In this document: one piece after another, positions 9,321 to 63,979 of the stretch
How positions within the stretch are numbered: the stretch's first letter is position 1
How the letters are laid out: each line of letters starts with the position of its first letter
NCBI GenBank assembly: GCA_947492745.1
Contig: CANLOE010000021.1
Coordinates: 1-64,000, forward strand
Direction of reading: 5' to 3'
DNA length: 64,000 nt
Source of the DNA: an uncultured Cyclobacteriaceae bacterium
GTDB taxonomy: Bacteria > Bacteroidota > Bacteroidia > Cytophagales > Cyclobacteriaceae
Position numbers and translations under genes: made by a program
Notes under the pieces: model-generated
What the model saw: only the letters and a program-made list of their open reading frames with translations
Database searches by the model: none
What the model was told of the DNA's origin: nothing

Positions 9321-9628
9321 AGAGACTGTTTTAAAATGTACTCTTTTTAGCACATACATCGTTAAACCCGGATTATACATTGGAACTTCGTAACGAGGGT
9401 TTAAATATCAATAAATCAGGGAGTTTTATTGGATTTGGCATAGCACCGCTATGGTGAACTCAAAAAACGTAGTGCAATGACCGGTTTACAGCTATTTAGA
9501 TCTGCAGTAGATTTTTCAATGCATGATCCGGGTTAAAACTTCCACAGATAGCGACGCCATCTGTGGAAGCTGATGCCAGCATTCAAAGCAAGCAACTACA
9601 GATTTAAGTCTAATCACAAAACAGTCTT
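9321..9628 (+). mobile_element. Family D MITE-like element carrying a nested B' copy
   Basis: Left end AGAGACTGTTTTAAAATG at 9321 and right end AAAACAGTCTT at 9628, flanked by TA on both sides. Reading across the inserted B' copy (9366-9533), the two halves join as CATACATCGTTAA-AACTTCCACAGATAGC, which matches the uninterrupted D copies. The D element is therefore older than the B' insertion. Confidence 0.75.
9366..9533 (+). mobile_element. Family B' MITE-like element nested in D
   Basis: 168 bp, ends ACCCGGATTATAC and GCATGATCCGGGT, central hairpin CATAGCACCGCTATG, flanked by TAA on both sides (9363-9365, 9534-9536). B' resembles B in architecture and length but has different arm sequences. 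Confidence 0.85.
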
Positions 9629-11333: not shown

Positions 11334-11730
11334 TGTTTATTTGGTTTTTGTTTAAAATTTAACTGAATCGACCCTTGCCACTGAGCTTTATCATAGATTT
11401 ACTCTACTTCAAAACTCCGTATGGGGTTGATCAAACGAATTAGAGTTGGAAAATTGAAGAAAACTGCACGATTCAACAACTTCAAACCTACAAATAGAAT
11501 TGGATAAGGACGAATGGTCTATTTTTCCGTTATACAGGATTGAACTTTATGGCTAAAAAATAAAATCATAACAGCTATTTTAGTATTAAAAAATACACTC
11601 CCGACTAACTAACTGTAGTAAAACAAGTTATGCGAGGTCAGGAAATCCTGGCCTTTTTCCTGTCTATCTTCGAGTCGACTACTATCTTTGTCAAAGGTGC
11701 CGTACTCAAAACAAGCGACAGCAAATTTCA
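11334..11730. other. Non-coding gap, left part of a decayed D element
   Basis: No gene. Near 11640-11730 the sequence (ACTATCTTTGTCAAAGG, then CAAAACAAGCGACAGCAAATTT) resembles the right half of family D, which continues past the C insertion to AAAACAGTCTCT at 11925. The left end of this D copy is not clear. Confidence 0.45.
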
Positions 11731-11899
11731 ACCCAAATTGATCAATAGGATTTCGTGATGAGGACATAAAGTACACTAAAATCAGCGGTTTAGGTAAGGA
11801 GGCCTTTGTATCACTAAGGTATAAAACCTGCGCAGTGTAAAACTGCTGATCTTGAAGCAGTCTATGTTCGTAATAGGAAGGCTATTGATCATTTTGGGT
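11731..11899 (+). mobile_element. Family C MITE-like element nested in a D remnant
   Basis: 169 bp, ends ACCCAAATTGATCAATAGG and GGCTATTGATCATTTTGGGT, with inner arms AAATCAGCGGTTT and AAACTGCTGATCTT. Target duplication TCA at 11728-11730 and 11900-11902. This copy shows that the 3-bp target is TNA and not strictly TTA/TAA. Confidence 0.85.
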
Positions 11900-11972
11900 T
11901 CAACGATAATCCCAAAACAGTCTCTAAAAGATAGATGTCCTAAAACTTATATATCAAAACCCATAAAAATCT

Positions 11973-16778: not shown

Positions 16779-16937
16779 TACAAATTTAGGTTTTAAATGT
16801 CGTATAAGATTCCGCGGGTCATTTTGTTTCAATCAAGGCGAGAACCGCAGGAATAGCAGCGCTATCCCGAGGATTGTCAACGCAGAGTGAAGCAAAATGA
16901 ACAGGAAGATAGGCGATATTTGAAAGCTAAGTTTGTA
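16779..16937 (-). mobile_element. Family A MITE-like element
   Basis: 159 bp, TACAAATTTAGGTTTT at the left and AAGCTAAGTTTGTA at the right, with the central GGATAGC hairpin. Target duplication TTA at 16776-16778 and 16938-16940. The terminal inverted repeats are about 24 bp and imperfect. Confidence 0.9.
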
Positions 16938-16994: not shown

Positions 16995-17124
16995 ACCTAG
17001 ATCATGCATTGGAAAATCTACTGCGAATCTAAATAGCTGCAAACCGGTCGTTGCACTACGTTTATTGGATTCACTATAGCGGTGCTATGCTAAATCCAAT
17101 AAAACTCCCTGATCTATGGACATT
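16995..17124 (-). mobile_element. Family B' element, truncated at the junction with C
   Basis: Starts ACCTAGATCATGC and includes the CATAGC-type hairpin, but the last 40 bp are missing. The sequence passes directly into a family C copy at TTTAAACCC, a tract common to both families, which suggests deletion by recombination at the shared end. Confidence 0.7.
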
Positions 17125-17127
17125 TAA

Positions 17128-17297
17128 ACCCAAATTGATCAATAGGGTTTCGTCATGAGAGCATAAAGTGCAATAAAATCAGCGGTTTAGGTGAAGAGGC
17201 TTAGTACATCACTAAGGGGACGAACCTGCGCAGCATAAAACTGCTGATTTTGAAGTAATTTATGTTCGGAATAGGAAGGCTATTGATTATTTTGGAT
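17128..17297 (+). mobile_element. Family C MITE-like element
   Basis: 170 bp, ends ACCCAAATTGATCAATAGG and GGCTATTGATTATTTTGGAT; TAA on each side (17125-17127, 17298-17300). A short right end of a D element (AAAACAGTCATT) follows near 17322. Confidence 0.8.
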
Positions 17298-24558: not shown

Positions 24559-24763
24559 TACTTCTCGGAAAACTTCTGCAATGATATGTTTGAGTTTTTC
24601 TTCGGCACTAAGAGACCGTTTTGCTATGTCTCTTTATATTCATCCGCAAGGCATTGATTTTCAATGGGTGCATAGAATTCGAAGGATAAGCATTTATCTC
24701 AAACTTTTACTTTCATTCATGTTCCATTGCTATCCGTGATCTTTTAGCGCCTGATTTCGTTTA

Positions 24764-24930
24764 ACCCAGAATGTTCGTTGGAACTTCATCATGAGGACTT
24801 AAATGGCAATAAATCAGTGCGTTTTCTTGGATTCAGCGTAGCACCGCTACGGTGAATTCAAAAAACGCATTCATTTACTGATTTGAAGCCAGTTAAGCCC
24901 GGAATAGATTTTCTAATGGACATTTTGGGT
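24764..24930 (+). mobile_element. Family B MITE-like element
   Basis: 167 bp, ends ACCCAGAATGTTCGTTGG and CTAATGGACATTTTGGGT, hairpin CGTAGC-ACC-GCTACG. Target duplication TTA (24761-24763 and 24931-24933). Inserted in a D element. Confidence 0.9.
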
Positions 24931-24962
24931 TTAAATTTTCGCAGATAGTCCTGCTATCTTTA

Positions 24963-25295
24963 ACTCAAAATGATCAATAGCCTTCCTATTACGAGCATAA
25001 ATTACTTCAAAATCAGTGGTTTTACGCTGCGCAGGTTTTATACAAACTTAGCTTTTAAATATCACATATCTTCCTGTTCATTTTGCTTCACTCTGCGTTG
25101 ACCATCCTCGGGATAGCGCTGCTATCCCTGCGGTTCTCGCCTTGATTGAAACAAAATGACCAGCGGAATCTTATAACGACATTTGAAACCCAAATTTGTA
25201 TTACACCCTAACAATACGCTAGGCCTCCTCACCTAAACCGCTGATCTTATTGTACTTTATGCCCTCATCACGAAATCCTATCGATCATTTTGGGT
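24963..25295 (-). mobile_element. Family C element interrupted by family A
   Basis: Outer ends ACTCAAAATGATCAATAG and CTATCGATCATTTTGGGT. Removing the A copy (25041-25200) and one TTA leaves 170 bp, the standard C length. The flanks differ (TTA and TGA), so the original target copy has changed by one base or was altered by the nesting. Confidence 0.85.
25041..25200 (+). mobile_element. Family A MITE-like element inside C
   Basis: 160 bp, TACAAACTTAGCTTTT to CCCAAATTTGTA, with TTA duplicated at 25038-25040 and 25201-25203. This insertion into C shows that A moved after C had arrived. Confidence 0.92.
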
Positions 25296-25703: not shown

Positions 25704-25925
25704 AGAGACTGTTTTAAAATGTATCTTTTTCTTTCTTACGTACTTCTTCTGGTGCATGATTTCGTTGAAATTTCCGCTAGCTAGCGCGACATGCTATCTT
25801 TGTCAATGGCTCACACGGCAGAAGGCCCCTTCACTAATAATGCCCCGAGGGCATTATTTTAACGCTAGGTCCTATCCAAAATAAGTGATCATAAATTCTA
25901 AAATAATATCTTCAAAACAGTCTCT
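25704..25925 (+). mobile_element. Family D MITE-like element, 222-bp subtype
   Basis: AGAGACTGTTTTAAAATG to TTCAAAACAGTCTCT, flanked by TA on both sides. It is nearly identical over its whole length to the copy at 45044-45265, so this subtype moved recently. The right end lies 21 bp before the ATG of the sigma factor pseudogene. Confidence 0.9.
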
Positions 25926-26469: not shown

Positions 26470-26627
26470 TACAAATTTAGCTTTTAAATATCGCCTATCT
26501 TCTTGTTCATTTTGCTTCACTCTGCGTTGACAATCCTCGGGATAGCGCGCTATCCCTGCGGTTCTCGCCTTGATTGAAACAAAATGACCAGCGGAATCTT
26601 ATACGACATTTGAAACCCAAATTTGTA
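26470..26627 (+). mobile_element. Family A element inside the sigma factor gene
   Basis: 158 bp, target duplication TTA (26467-26469 and 26628-26630). It abuts the family B copy; its right TTA overlaps the left TAA of B. Confidence 0.93.
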
Positions 26628-26631
26628 TTAA

Positions 26632-26798
26632 ACCCAAAATGTCCATTAGAAAATCTATTCCGGACTTAACTGGCTTCAAATCAGTAAATGAATACATTTT
26701 TTGAATTAACCGTAGCGGTGCTACGCTGAATCCAAGAAAAAGCCCTGATTTATTGCCATTTAAGTCCTCATGACGAAGTTCCAACGAACATTCTGAGT
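26632..26798 (-). mobile_element. Family B element inside the sigma factor gene
   Basis: 167 bp, ACCCAAAATG to CATTCTGAGT, flanked by TAA (26629-26631 and 26799-26801). Removing it with one TAA restores the coding frame of the host gene. Confidence 0.93.
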
Positions 26799-29364: not shown

Positions 29365-29394
29365 TTAAACCCAAATTGATCAATTTGGGTTTAA
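29365..29394. repeat. 30-bp perfect palindrome, minimal C derivative
   Basis: TTAAACCCAAATTGA followed by its exact reverse complement. It consists of the two ends of a family C element joined with the whole interior deleted. Confidence 0.8.
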
Positions 29395-44531: not shown

Positions 44532-44544
44532 AAAGACCATTTTA

Positions 44545-44714
44545 ACCTGGATCATGCGTTGGAACTTCGTAACGAGGGTTTAAACAGCAATACATCAGGG
44601 AGTTTTATTGGATTTAGCATAGTACCGCTATGGTGAATCCAATAAACGTAGTGCAACGACCGGCTTGCAGCTATTTAGATCCGCAGTAGATTTTTCAATG
44701 CATAACCACCTAGT
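44545..44714 (+). mobile_element. Family B' element nested in D
   Basis: ACCTGGATCATGCG to a degraded right end near ACCTAGT. The hairpin is CATAGTACCGCTATG. The right flank no longer matches the left TTA. Confidence 0.7.
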
Positions 44715-44719
44715 TTTAA

Positions 44720-44889
44720 ACCCAAAACTATCAATGGCCTGCCTATTCCGAACATAAATTGCTTCAAGATAAGCGGTTTTACACTACGGTAGGTGCGTCA
44801 CCTTAGTGATACAAAGGCCTCCTCTCCCAAACCACTGATTTTATTACTCTTTATGTTCTCATCACAAAATCCTATCGATCAATTGGGGT
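44720..44889 (-). mobile_element. Family C element nested in D
   Basis: 170 bp, ACCCAAAACTATCAATGG to CTATCGATCAATTGGGGT. Flanks are TAA and CAA, so one base of the target copy has changed. Confidence 0.75.
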
Positions 44890-45043
44890 CAAAGGAACCT
44901 TTCACTTTTATACATATGTATTGATATCCCAGGGACACACGGAATCCTCGGAAGAACAATAGTTATCTCAAGTTCAGCATGTCCTACATCAGGCTCATTT
45001 CTTAGGTACTTTTCCTAGCGCATAATTTCAAAACGGTCCCTTA

Positions 45044-45265
45044 GATACTGTTTTAAACTGTATCTTTTTCTTTCTTATGTACTTCTTTCGGTGCCTGATT
45101 TCGTTGAAATTTCCGCTAGCTAGCGCGATATGCTATCTTTGTCAATGGCTCACGCGGCAGACCGGTCCCTTCACTGATAATGCCCTCGGGGCATTCTTTT
45201 AACGCTCGGTCCTATCCAAAATAAGTGATCATAAATTCTAAAATAATATCTTCAAAACAGTCTCT
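45044..45265 (+). mobile_element. Family D element, 222-bp subtype, abutting the LytTR gene
   Basis: GATACTGTTTTAAACTG to TTCAAAACAGTCTCT, TA on both sides. Almost identical to 25704-25925. On the minus strand its last base completes the stop codon of the LytTR gene (TA target plus A). Confidence 0.9.
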
Positions 45266-52271: not shown

Positions 52272-55200
52272 CTAATTTTTAATAATCTGTGTATAGGCCC
52301 ACTGTCCGTACTGATCCTTGACCCCCACCACGTAGTACCCATTCGGTAGGTGATTGAGATCGAGACTTGGCTCGAAGTACCTGTCATTGCTCAATTGCAG
52401 TACTGTTTTGCCGGTTCTATCTTTTAGGTCAACCTGCACAAAGGGCAGTGTCCTTGTTTCACCATCAATCTGACCAAGGTACTTCAGCGTCACTGTGCCT
52501 TGATTTGGATTAGGATAGGCCAGTAGCTCGTTATTATATGACCTAGGGTAGTTGAACTTATTAACTACAATATTTGTAATCAGATACTTATTAAAATCAA
52601 ACTGTATCGCAGCTCTGTTTTTGATTTCCGTACCTGGCCATACGCCGACTTTGGGTTTTATCCTGAACTTGACAAAACCGTGACTCTCAGGTTCATTTGT
52701 GGTACTGTCGGGCAGGTGGATGTCATAGGCTTCGAACTTCAGCACATTGTTCTTCAGAATATTGTACCTAAAGTTATGGCTCAATCCTGTGATTTCCAGT
52801 GTGTGGGTGTCGAGGTGCTGCGAAAGCGTATCGATGATAATGACCCTAGATGCGTAATAATTACCTACGTTCTGAAAGCGTATGGTATAGGTCAACGAAT
52901 CGCCTTCGCCTATGCCTCCTCTGGGAAAGACCAGTTTATCATTGGGGTCAAAAGAGCCTACCACCTCTTCTTTGGCCGTAGCAAGATTATCCGACATATC
53001 ACAGTCCGCCCCCGAACCTGCGATGACAGCAGAGACGCTCAAAGAGTCTCCATTGGTAGTGGCCAACGAGATAGAATCCGTTAAGTAGATAATGCCTTTT
53101 TCGAATGCCGCTACCGTACCCAGATCCCAAGTGTACTCCGTACTACTGGGGCCATTGGTCTCTCCGTCCCACTCAGGGTCGCCATCAACAGCTACTACAC
53201 CCTCTTCCATATGGATACTCAGTTCGGTGTCCAAGGCCGCTTTGCTACCTTTATTTTCGTATACGATGACCAGAACATTGCGAAAGCCCCTTCTAAAAGC
53301 CGTCGCTGCCACACTTACCTGAAGGTTAGCTTCATTACAAGTAGGCGTATTGCCGAAGTCATTGCCACAGTATTCTCCGGAAGGTACGATAGATAGCTGA
53401 TAATCACCTTGAGGTACAGGCGAACTTTGGGCCCAACCTTCCTGGGCCACTTGTGATAAGGTATATTGCCCTTCTCCCAAGTAGGTCCTGTAATCGCCCT
53501 GCTCGTCCGTCACCAACATCATACCCAAAGGCTCTACTCTTATTTCCACACCGGGCATGGCCGTCTCCCCGACATCATAAGCTCCATTGCCATTAGCATC
53601 ATGGTATACTTTGCCACATACCAGTGGGTCGGTTTCTTCGATAATTTCCACACAACCGTTTACCGGTTGATTAACAAGGTACTGTGTAGTACCCGAGGGC
53701 CACTCTACGATAACCGAATCGATCTGAGCAGCATCTCCTAGGCCGAACAAGGCCCGAAGTGTACTCTGGCCACTTGACCCGCCGCCGGTCTGTGCCGATA
53801 CTTCCCTCACCTGCCATACACTACTATTGTACACAGTGGCCTTTACCCTTATCTTAGCTCCGATGCCCGAGCGATTACTACGGGTACCCTGTAGCGTAAA
53901 ACAACCTTTAGAGTTACAGCTTCCGCCACTATTGGTAAAATAGGTGTTGGTCTGATTACTATGCTGGGCGATGAAAAGGTCCAAGTCGCCATCATTGTCG
54001 GGGTCTCCCCAAGCACTGCCAAAAGAGTTGCCCCCAGAGTAGTTGATAGCATTGTCCGTCTTGGCAAAGGTGCCATCACCGTTATTGGTATAGAGGAAAT
54101 TGACCTCATTTTGATCATTGGCCACGAACAGGTCCAGAAAACCATCATTGTTAAAGTCACCCCAAGCACTGCCATGGGAATGTCCTCTATCATTGACAAC
54201 AATACCTGATGTCACTTTGGTAAAGGTACCATCACCGTTATTACGGTACAGAAAATTATTTTCATTACCTGCATTGGCCACGAACAGGTCCAGAAAACCA
54301 TCGTTATCATAATCACCCCAACTGGCCCCTACCGAGTTGCCTCCATCCTGAACAATACTGCCTTCGGTGATTTGGGTAAAGTCACCATTGCCGTCGTTAC
54401 GGTAAAGGATATTGTCCTGATCGATGTTGGGGATGAACAGGTCCATATCCCTATCATTATCATAATCGGCCCAAGTGGCACCAATGGCATTGCTGACAGA
54501 TAAGCTAGGTGCGCTGCCACCGTTCACGGTAAAGTTGCCACTACCATCGTTTTTGTAGAGTCGATTGAATTCCGACCGAAAATAACCCGTAACAAAGAGG
54601 TCCAGGTAGCCATCGTTATCGTAGTCCACCCATGATGGCGTATGACTATGCCCATCGTAAGTATTGATAGACTCTTGTATCGCTTTGGTAAAGGTACCGT
54701 CACCATTATTGTTGTAAAGAAAGCTAGGCCCTCCTGACTGATTCGACACGAATACATCGATATCGCCATCGTTATCATAGTCGGCCCAAGTACTGCCCGT
54801 AGCTGTGGACCTATCTTCTACCAGAGGACCTGTAGTCACCTTGCTGAAGGTACCGTCTCCGTTATTCTTATACAACAGGTTCCCTTTCTGAGGATTGTAC
54901 TCTGGTACGAACAGATCCTCAAAACCATCGTTATCATAATCCACCCATGCTGCACTCCAGCTATCGCTGATATCATCGGTCAGTCCAGCAGTAGTGTTCT
55001 CTTCGAACTTCACTGTAGGATCATAGGCAAAAAACTTTGTGGGCAAAGCAGCTCCACAGGATTCCTGACCGTTGATTTCCGCAAGGATGAAATCCCCTGG
55101 CCTATAGTCGCTGTTCAGGGTAAATCTGGCTTTCAGCTGAAACCGGTTAGAATCCAAGTTCAGCACACCGGGCAATCCATTTTCTGCAATGTAAGTGCTG

Positions 55201-63328: not shown

Positions 63329-63427
63329 AGAGCCTGTCTTGAACTGTATCTCTTTTGTTTTCATTTGGTAGGCATTGATTTTTAATCGTCACTTGGAATT
63401 CGTAGGTACAGATCTGTCTCAAGTTGA
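63329..63427 (+). mobile_element. Family D left part
   Basis: AGAGCCTGTCTTGAACTG preceded by TA; the D sequence runs to CAGATCTGTCTCAAGTTGA and is then interrupted by the C element. No right end is seen before the window ends. Confidence 0.6.
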
Positions 63428-63593
63428 ACCCAAAATGATCGATAGAAATCGTGATGAGCGTATAAATAATAAAATATCAACCATTTGGGTTCGTTCAGCA
63501 TAGCACCGTTATGGTGAATGGGGACAGGAGGGCAAAGCTTCTGGCATGAAGCTATTTATGCGCGGAATAGGAAGGCTATTGATTATTTTGGGT
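63428..63593 (+). mobile_element. Family C element with a B'-type core (chimera)
   Basis: The outer ends are those of C (ACCCAAAATGATCGATAG and GGCTATTGATTATTTTGGGT), but the apex CATAGCACCGTTATGGTGAATGG is the B' hairpin. It is 166 bp long. Flanks are TGA and TTA. Confidence 0.75.
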
Positions 63594-63596
63594 TTA

Positions 63597-63634
63597 ACCC
63601 AAAATGTCCATTAGAAAATCTATTCCGGACTTAA
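63597..63634 (-). mobile_element. Family B fragment truncated at A
   Basis: 38 bp identical to the start of the reverse-oriented B copies (ACCCAAAATGTCCATTAG onward). The rest of B is missing on the other side of the A insertion. Confidence 0.75.
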
Positions 63635-63793
63635 TACAAACTTAGCTTTTAACTATCGCATATCTTCTTGTTCATTTTGCTTCACTCTGCGTTGACCATC
63701 CTCGGGATAGCGCTGCTATCCCTGCGGTTCTCGCCTTGATTGAAAAAAAATGACCCGCGCAATCTTATACGACATTTAAAACCCAAATTTGTA
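63635..63793 (+). mobile_element. Family A MITE-like element
   Basis: 159 bp, TAA duplicated at 63632-63634 and 63794-63796; intact hairpin GGATAGC-GCT-GCTATCC. Confidence 0.9.
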
Positions 63794-63809
63794 TAACACG
63801 ATATGATAA

Positions 63810-63979
63810 ACCCGGATCATGCATTGGAAAATCCACTGCGAATCTAAATAGCTGCAAACCGGTCGTTACACTAAGTTTTGTTGAATTCACCATAGCGGTG
63901 CTATGCTAAATCCAACAAAACTCCCTGATATATTGACGGTTAAATCCTATTTATGAAGTCCCAACGCATAATCCGGGGT
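63810..63979 (-). mobile_element. Family B' MITE-like element
   Basis: 170 bp, ACCCGGATCATGC to GCATAATCCGGGGT, hairpin CATAGC-GGT-GCTATG. Left flank TAA, right flank AAA. Confidence 0.8.

Follow-up and report, generated by a model that had tools for sequence, protein, structure and literature searches.

The dispersed repeats that lie between the genes of this genome, including those nested at 24612–25295, are very probably MITEs that insert at TNA, with IS4-type parents of two families (A and B'), copies of the C family acting as landing pads for the A family, A having been active late, and the D family being old. A, B, B', C, C', and F would be non-autonomous insertion sequences (MITEs), each composed of two ~80-bp inverted IS arms without a transposase gene.

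The window, the whole stretch of 64,000 nucleotides analysed here, comprises the first 64000 bases of one contig in a source genome of 7.1 Mb in 458 contigs. Nine of the ten window ORFs scanned match Pfam families of ordinary cell genes, and one window ORF scores 24.1 bits in the Pfam scan for Por_Secre_tail (type IX sorting domain; cut-off 27), a near-match that suggests Bacteroidota. The gaps separating the window genes are dense with dispersed repeats. Tandem repeats of ~156 bp are also present at 53909–54970, within a minus-strand ORF of 2167 aa.

Profile models of the repeat families were first built from 1.184 Mb and then rebuilt on 2.417 Mb of the same genome, a sample of 31 contig stretches (34% of the genome). 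Interrupted hosts were revealed by removing full elements, innermost first, and proceeding outward. The element counts take in full-length copies only; hits short of full length are not counted. Stretches of contigs C59 and C131, chosen for their hits, are excluded from the statistics and used only for the flanks and arms of the parents. Two stretches of contig C8 were first picked for hits, and the contig is in the final sample as 1–100 kb.

The family names A, B, B', C, and D are taken from the first-pass annotation. C' denotes a family whose ends are of the C type but whose core differs, and F is a further B-like family. A is 159 bp long with ends TACAAA..TTTGTA; B, B', C', C, and F are 166–170 bp long with ends ACCC..GGGT; D is ~221 bp long with ends GAGACTG..CAGTCTC. 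The 2.417-Mb sample contains 205 full copies of A, 96 of B', and 76 of C, and the B-type families jointly have 354. The 597 full-length elements amount to 99.6 kb, or 4.1% of the sequence, and fill approximately one-sixth of the crudely called non-coding DNA. By simple proportion, the whole genome would hold ~1750 elements. In crude gene calls on the 31 stretches, gaps between convergent genes are enriched in elements (159 of 578, for 100 of 526 kb), whereas gaps between divergent genes are depleted (103 of 578, for 138 of 526 kb).

In the same 2.417 Mb, the middle bases of the two flanks agree, where both flanks are TNA, in 172/185 copies for A (90.9 expected), 60/71 for B (30.7), 57/77 for B' (23.0), 49/63 for C' (17.4), 45/61 for C (18.4), 12/19 for F (5.8), and 19/25 for D (8.9). 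Matching flanks exceed expectation in all seven families, and the excess is not due to chance.

The nest is composed of the following features.

24612–24763, plus strand: left part of the outer D-like element, with end GAGACCGTTTTG preceded by TAA; it rejoins with the stretch to 24962 once B is removed.
24764–24930, plus strand: B element of 167 bp, ACCCAGAATG..CATTTTGGGT; HMM score 199.9 bits over 1–167 of 167; flanks TTA/TTA.
24761–24763 (left) and 24931–24933 (right): target duplication of B, TTA.
24934–24962, plus strand: central portion of the outer D-like element, extending to C; the excised window copy was aligned with 22 other copies.
24963–25295, minus strand: C element, 170 bp without A and split by A; two C hits, 90–169 and 1–96 of 170, rejoin to full length.
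25041–25200, minus strand: A element of 160 bp, TACAAACTTA..CAAATTTGTA, in the loop site of C; 178.4 bits over 1–159 of 159; flanks TTA/TTA.

The nest is largely real and was mostly read correctly by the first-pass annotation, which described four levels. A lies within C and B lies within the D-like repeat, the latter giving 38 hits after removal of B (its own copy counted; E ≤ 0.01, 2.417 Mb). The depth is three, however, B being a sibling of C. It had also been stated that each interruption keeps its target duplication or restores a unit of standard length. This holds for B and A, both flanked by TTA/TTA, and for the rejoined 170-bp C, but C itself has mismatched flanks, TTA to its left and TGA to its right. 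Beyond 25295, the right-hand remainder of the D-like element, ~75 bp long by the consensus of the 22 other copies, cannot be recognised; the aligner placed bases downstream of the nest into the missing part weakly, and the element looks truncated judging from its alignment. The mismatched flanks of C and the unrecognisable right part of D together indicate that C in D is not the clean insertion it had been taken for. As for the order of events, A into C and B into D are sound, whereas the place of C after D rests on an insertion without matching flanks.

The other repeat loci in the window are listed below.

9322–9628, plus strand: D-type element holding B' (9366–9533); outer flanks TAA/TAA, inner flanks TAA/TAA.
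11731–11899: C, flanks TCA/TCA.
16779–16937, plus strand: A element outside the nest; 187.0 bits, TTA/TTA.
25705–25924, plus strand: D element of the main D subfamily, shortly downstream of the nest; 246.8 bits over 1–221 of 221; flanks TAA/TTA.
26470–26798, minus strand: A (26470–26627, TTA/TTA) adjoining B (26632–26798, TAA/TAA).
44545–44888: B' (TTA/TTT) and C (TAA/TCA) side by side, flanks not matching.
45044–45264, plus strand: full D element of 221 bp; 258.2 bits, TTA/TTA.
63428–63978: C' (63428–63593, TGA/TTA), A (63635–63793, TAA/TAA), and B' (63810–63978, TAA/TAA), side by side.

The first-pass annotation had placed further nests with D outside at four of these loci. The one at 9321–9628 is borne out by identical flanks on both host and B'. 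In the one at 11640–11925, C has matching flanks and the surrounding D is putative. Those at 44532–45041 and 63329–63979 contain elements lying next to each other, B' with C in the former and C', A, and B' in the latter. Two other structures in the window should be noted. At 16996–17297, a B' limited to model positions 32–167 joins C at TTTAAACCC inside B', the remaining B' being absent; from its sequence, the junction looks like recombination between an internal motif of B' and an end of C. At 29369–29390, a 22-bp perfect palindrome adjoins an A element and comprises two fused C-type ends (ACCCAAATTGATCAATTTGGGT), which may be a minimal vestige of C ends or the product of their fusion.

In the 2.417-Mb sample, 74 nestings were found, 68 of them with identical TNA flanks. 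Their distribution is as follows.

A inserted: 2 into A, 3 into B, 14 into B', 9 into C', 19 into C, 3 into F, 0 into D.
B inserted: 0 into A, 0 into B, 1 into B', 0 into C', 1 into C, 0 into F, 0 into D.
B' inserted: 1 into A, 1 into B, 0 into B', 0 into C', 3 into C, 0 into F, 2 into D.
C' inserted: 0 into A, 1 into B, 4 into B', 0 into C', 0 into C, 1 into F, 3 into D.
C inserted: 1 into A, 0 into B, 1 into B', 0 into C', 0 into C, 1 into F, 1 into D.
F inserted: 2 into A, 0 into B, B', C', C, F, and D.
D inserted: 0 into any element.

A is thus inserted 50 times and serves as host six times, whereas D is host six times and is never inserted. Apart from two insertions of A into A, 48 insertions of A into other families stand against four in the reverse direction. 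The first-pass annotation had asked whether A is ever interrupted by B, C, or D, and its expectation holds as a tendency, with exceptions: the 74 nestings include none by B, one by C, and none by D, in addition to one by B' and two by F. Host copies make up 6 of 205 in A versus 56 of 354 in the B-type families (Fisher p 6e-7). The 48:4 asymmetry also departs from the share of 0.561 expected under contemporaneous activity (p 2e-8).

The expected frequencies were calculated with target weights. If all non-A elements preceded A, 18.3% of A insertions should fall into them, and 23.4% (48/205) do so. If all A elements preceded the others, 8.3% of non-A insertions should fall into A, whereas 4 of 354 are found there. 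Much of the nesting frequency of A therefore needs no special explanation. The closeness of 18.3% to 23.4% also speaks for the view that clustering results solely from the tolerance of non-coding DNA, target preference and order being absent, as does the finding that 4 of the 597 elements have coding sequence on both sides by the crude calls. This explanation is nevertheless highly improbable, because the 48:4 asymmetry and the site occupancies described below conflict with it.

The nesting order is a tendency and not a strict rule. The median divergence from consensus is.035 in A,.036 in B,.030 in C',.072 in B',.107 in C,.055 in D, and.236 in F. These values rank the families differently from the nesting order, A seeming no younger than B and C' by this measure. 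The successive waves that had been proposed, with D first, B and C next, and A last, therefore survive in so far as A tends to be late and D early, while the divergence ladder disagrees with a strict sequence. Moreover, a composite B'[C'][A] is found at two sites, 43710–44207 of contig C4 and 43905–44403 of contig C8, with 470 of 502 aligned bases identical. The flanks of the composites differ (TCA/TCA on C4, TTG/TTA on C8), indicating that a nest can apparently be mobilised whole. The order within a nest, hence, need not equal the order of arrival at that place.

The location of A is related to its target sequence. The 110 A insertions away from other elements give a palindrome close to GGTNTWANACC as the target, and B, B', C', and C prefer TTNAA. 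The numbers of TWA sites filled by A, in order of zero to six matches to the motif, are as follows.

Non-coding DNA, a partly circular series because the motif was derived from insertions there: 8/4666, 17/8449, 32/6388, 37/2733, 21/736, 9/108, 2/10.
Inside non-A elements, a series free of this circularity: 2/481, 9/778, 13/831, 6/463, 3/96, 1/12, 12/25.
Coding DNA (16/44352 in total): 0/9471, 1/16523, 7/12256, 3/4871, 4/1104, 1/122, 0/5.

From zero to five matches, the occupancy of non-coding sites rises ~50-fold, and 12 of the 25 sites with a full match inside other elements are filled. Both observations are at odds with tolerance of non-coding DNA as the sole cause. This dependence of occupancy on the motif indicates that the location of A mostly follows target sequence.

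The C family is prominent among the hosts. Of the in-element sites with five or six matches, 29 of 37 are in C, and so are 12 of the 13 filled ones. Fourteen of the 19 A insertions in C are at model positions 80–100, and five are elsewhere. At positions 80–100, A is present in 13 of 28 copies having TAAA at the site, versus 1 of 48 other copies, in which A lies a few bases away. In B' and C', A is found mainly in arm sites at model positions ~33–40 and 127–134 (12/14 and 8/9, respectively), the consensus of the favoured sites being TTTAAA or close to it. These positions are consistent with a mechanism in which elements accumulate in scarce non-coding DNA, the A transposase prefers GGTNTWANACC, a part of the C family carries this motif in its loop, and the site-bearing C copies would act as landing pads for A. 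Under this mechanism, the C loop site GGTGTAAAACC should be hit by A far more often than GGTGACGAACC.

The same junction in 13 C copies could instead mean that A entered C once and that the C+A composite was then amplified as a unit. The A's at positions 80–100 share orientation in 11 of 14 cases, the first genome search gave ~337-bp matches at ~90%, and the apparent movement of the B'[C'][A] composite provides a parallel. The 11 A's of the same orientation are also slightly more alike, with an identity of 0.936 among themselves versus 0.919 to other A's. However, the closest relative of each of the 14 A's is never another of the set, although in three cases another of the set is among the five closest relatives. 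The A-bearing C copies are scattered on the C tree, requiring 14 changes against a shuffled mean of 13, and a single clade is rejected (AU p 0.017), the tree being a quick one that holds 74 of 76 copies (two omitted by length) and leaves 44 of 71 inner branches open. The shared junction, moreover, is explained by the full match to the A target. Gene conversion among A copies could hide a single origin, but amplification of one composite is improbable. As judged from the sequences, the A insertions at the C loop site apparently are independent hits.

The parents of two families were found in searches of the genome with DDE_Tnp_1, DDE_Tnp_1_2, and DDE_Tnp_1_4, which gave 14, 1, and 6 matches, respectively. 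The A parent is 1680 bp long, is flanked by TAA/TAA, and contains an ORF of 430 aa; its arms correspond to positions 1–92 and 81–159 of the A model. A decayed copy of 568 bp is flanked by TTA/TTA. The B' parent, 1381 bp long with TAA/TAA flanks and an ORF of 362 aa on the opposite strand, has arms corresponding to positions 1–85 and 77–166 of the B' model. For A and B', then, the arms, the TNA duplication, and a parent IS with an intact IS4-family gene are all in place. A, B, B', C, C', and F alike have the features of MITEs, namely inverted-repeat ends, no transposase gene, and a consensus of 159–170 bp paired nearly end to end. In the whole genome, each transposase is represented by one uninterrupted and one fragmentary copy, whereas full-length MITEs number 205 for A and 96 for B' in the 34% sample. 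The MITEs would be moved by transposase made elsewhere in the genome, which would insert them at TNA and duplicate 3 bp. For B, C, C', F, and D, the transposase-domain searches of the genome found no parent; such parents presumably exist.

The transposases each exceed the cut-off of a different NCBIfam IS4-family model, with E values of 8e-47 (A) and 6e-61 (B'). The YREK motif, Y(2)R(3)E(6)K, is present in both as YGVRWHIEPVFKAWK and YSERWQIEMLFSCLK. The DDE spacings, with residues chosen by eye, are 72/118 in A, within the D(60–110)D(100–150)E range of PMC2266710, and 65/96 in B', where the second spacer is just short of it. The IS5 family includes the IS1031 group, in which TNA is duplicated as 3 bp, as in the elements described here. 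Nevertheless, the parents match IS4 models, and no IS5 models are among the NCBIfam matches of either transposase at E ≤ 0.001. The single-ORF transposase, the YREK motif, and the NCBIfam matches thus resemble the IS4 family, whereas the duplication and the terminal repeats do not. According to PMC2266710, IS4 subgroups have 7–13-bp duplications (Table 1) and terminal repeats of 10–40 bp. Both parents, in contrast, have 3-bp TAA/TAA duplications, with TNA in the derived MITEs, and imperfect arms of ~79–92 bp.

Two other assignments were considered. IS1380-like transposases are less likely parents of B or C, since the nearby B, C, and C' hits are mostly whole MITEs and not arms. One C-like 18-bp end, however, is present upstream of an IS1380-like ORF at locus L132, where the contig ends before any right end. 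D was considered as a TA-duplicating relative of IS630, but 2 of 12 GAGACTG-ended candidates are flanked by TCA/TCA, so TNA fits better. On contig C11 (18534–20340), D-type ends ~1.8 kb apart surround an ORF of 193 aa that is IS630-like by eye, with flanks TTA/TTT.

In 58 related genomes, the A element is absent except for seven 33-nt partial matches in one genome. B-type elements are found in 3 of the 58, in three genera of the same family, at 70–76% identity, one of them spanning just 70 nt. Homologues of the A transposase are present in three genomes (43%, 35%, and a broken one at 30%), and those of the B' transposase in four (31–37%). Of two further genome scans, one with the A transposase confirmed no relative, and one with a window protein resembling TPR/histidine-kinase proteins yielded 5 distant hits (20–26%). 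Near distant homologues of the B' transposase in genomes G056 and G040 of the same order, duplications of ~9–10 bp were read by eye. In genome G021, 13 B-type copies are full length, of which 11 are preceded by TTA and 12 are followed by TAA, and none has the same 3 bp on both sides. The sequence of these flanks points to a TTAA target, and the TNA duplication does not appear there. When the surroundings of the A-transposase homologues of G020 and G001 were scanned for inverted ends with TNA flanks, one yielded none and the other only weak pairs.

The two strands of the elements fold unequally. A, B, B', C, C', and F each fold as one long imperfect hairpin, paired nearly end to end. With RNA energies (kcal/mol), the strands differ in A (−66.9 versus −41.6), B' (−79.8/−55.1), B (−83.3/−57.6), C' (−80.6/−57.2), C (−71.2/−53.8), and F (−78.8/−65.1), the favoured strand being better by 14–26 kcal/mol; the values in D are −60.8/−64.9. 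DNA energies for one A copy (−28.3/−18.0) and one B copy (−42.2/−30.9) have the same direction. When every opposed mismatch and unpaired base was flipped at random, the observed difference was reached in 2 of 300 randomisations for A, 9 for B', 6 for B, 1 for C', 3 for C, and 14 for F. D shows no strand bias (212/300). Related elements are biased likewise, namely the consensus of 13 copies in G021 (1/300) and single copies in G014 (12/300) and G002 (19/300).

The bias is also visible in base composition. At opposed positions, G-U to A-C ratios are 4:0 in A, 7:3 in B', 6:0 in B, 7:1 in C', 6:0 in C, and 5:1 in F. Cytosine is scarce at opposed non-Watson–Crick positions: 0/12 in A, 0/21 in C, 2/21 in C', 1/14 in F, 3/15 in B, 4/17 in B', 0/14 in G021, 1/16 in G014, and 5/23 in G002, versus 13/21 in the unbiased D. 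In an alignment of 11 B-type sequences from four genera, both sides have changed in 19 of 37 pairs versus 9.1 in shuffled alignments (0/500 reaching this value), although that alignment also served to predict the structure, and covariation is expected of inverted repeats in any case. The B-type consensus folds at −28.0 with 37 pairs, and its opposite strand at −15.8 with 23 pairs. Variants shared among copies of the four non-A families tested favour G-U, with 32:11 at ≥10 copies and 62:37 at ≥5 copies, the thresholds being post hoc.

Since the inverted arms make any bias in double-stranded binding sites strand-neutral, a bias on the same strand seems to need a one-strand process. A functional hairpin of RNA or single-stranded DNA, always formed by the same strand, may be the form in which the elements are maintained or propagated, a doubtful explanation to which the energy gap, the randomisations, the same direction in three other genera, and the G-U excess nonetheless lend weight. 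We tentatively suggest, as a possibility on the less probable side, that A and the B type, two MITE lineages with different transposases, the latter in four genera, evolve as a single-stranded hairpin on a fixed strand and pass through folded RNA or single-stranded DNA during their spread, despite the DDE-type transposases of their parents. Because the B-type families are related, A and the B type provide two tests of the bias and not six, and D is unbiased. The G-U bias is absent in rare variants of the non-A families (123 versus 111, p 0.47) and in shared variants of A (8:6). Selection on the fold after insertion was rejected, the G-U excess over all non-A copies (C>T 579 and A>G 423 versus G>A 335 and T>C 240) being gone in unique variants (181 versus 160, p 0.28). 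The divergence of paired and unpaired columns is about equal in A, C', and C, and is greater in paired columns in B and B'. Relative to neighbouring genes, the elements are oriented almost at random (163:133, p 0.09; 79:74; 45:47), the 64-kb window has no Rfam 15 matches at the gathering score, and the favoured strand corresponds to the sense strand of the transposase gene in the A parent and to its antisense strand in the B' parent; all of these disagree with a hairpin function. The unpaired columns of B, B', C', and C are purine-rich rather than G+T-rich (A62, G42, T32, C20), which makes it less likely that the asymmetry arose solely from mutation directed at one strand. The favoured-strand reading stands beside the separate use of C by A as a landing pad.

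ERIC, Correia/NEMIS, RUP, BOX, SPRITE, and Nezha are bacterial MITE families known from reviews; PMC10969869 (section 3.3) and PMC3049150 describe the insertion of BOX, RUP, and SPRITE into one another. The elements described here resemble them in being short, gene-free, and mostly intergenic, with inverted-repeat ends, a hairpin, and a short target duplication. They differ in the 3-bp TNA duplication, in having IS4-family parents identified for two families, and in the measured landing pad of one family within another. As for copy number, a passage in PMC10969869 gives up to 711 ERIC copies in one genome; here, ~600 A copies are expected by proportion, together with several other families in the same genome. 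According to PMC2229807, ERIC is known to act at the RNA level in a manner that depends on its orientation, and processing by RNase III has been proposed for NEMIS. The closest parallel to the landing pad in these sources is QMITE2 of Coxiella, a target of IS1111 in which two IS1111 copies are located (a passage in PMC10969869). There, too, a mobile element targets a MITE, but here both partners are MITE families and 13 of 28 eligible sites are filled. A search of PMC found no description of the A, B, B', C, C', D, and F families. The nest, therefore, consists of a known kind of element, MITEs; the uncommon aspects are their load, the 3-bp duplications of the two IS4-type parents, the landing pad of A in C, and the strand-biased folding.

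With several high-copy MITE families and the apparently single-copy sources of two of them in one genome, the amplification of MITEs by a rare autonomous copy can be tested in a bacterium. A 3-bp duplication made by IS4-type transposases would broaden the view of the IS4 family, and the A–C landing pad puts numbers on the exploitation of one mobile element by another. Should the strand bias result from selection, the hairpins of MITEs would be more than double-stranded sites for a transposase.
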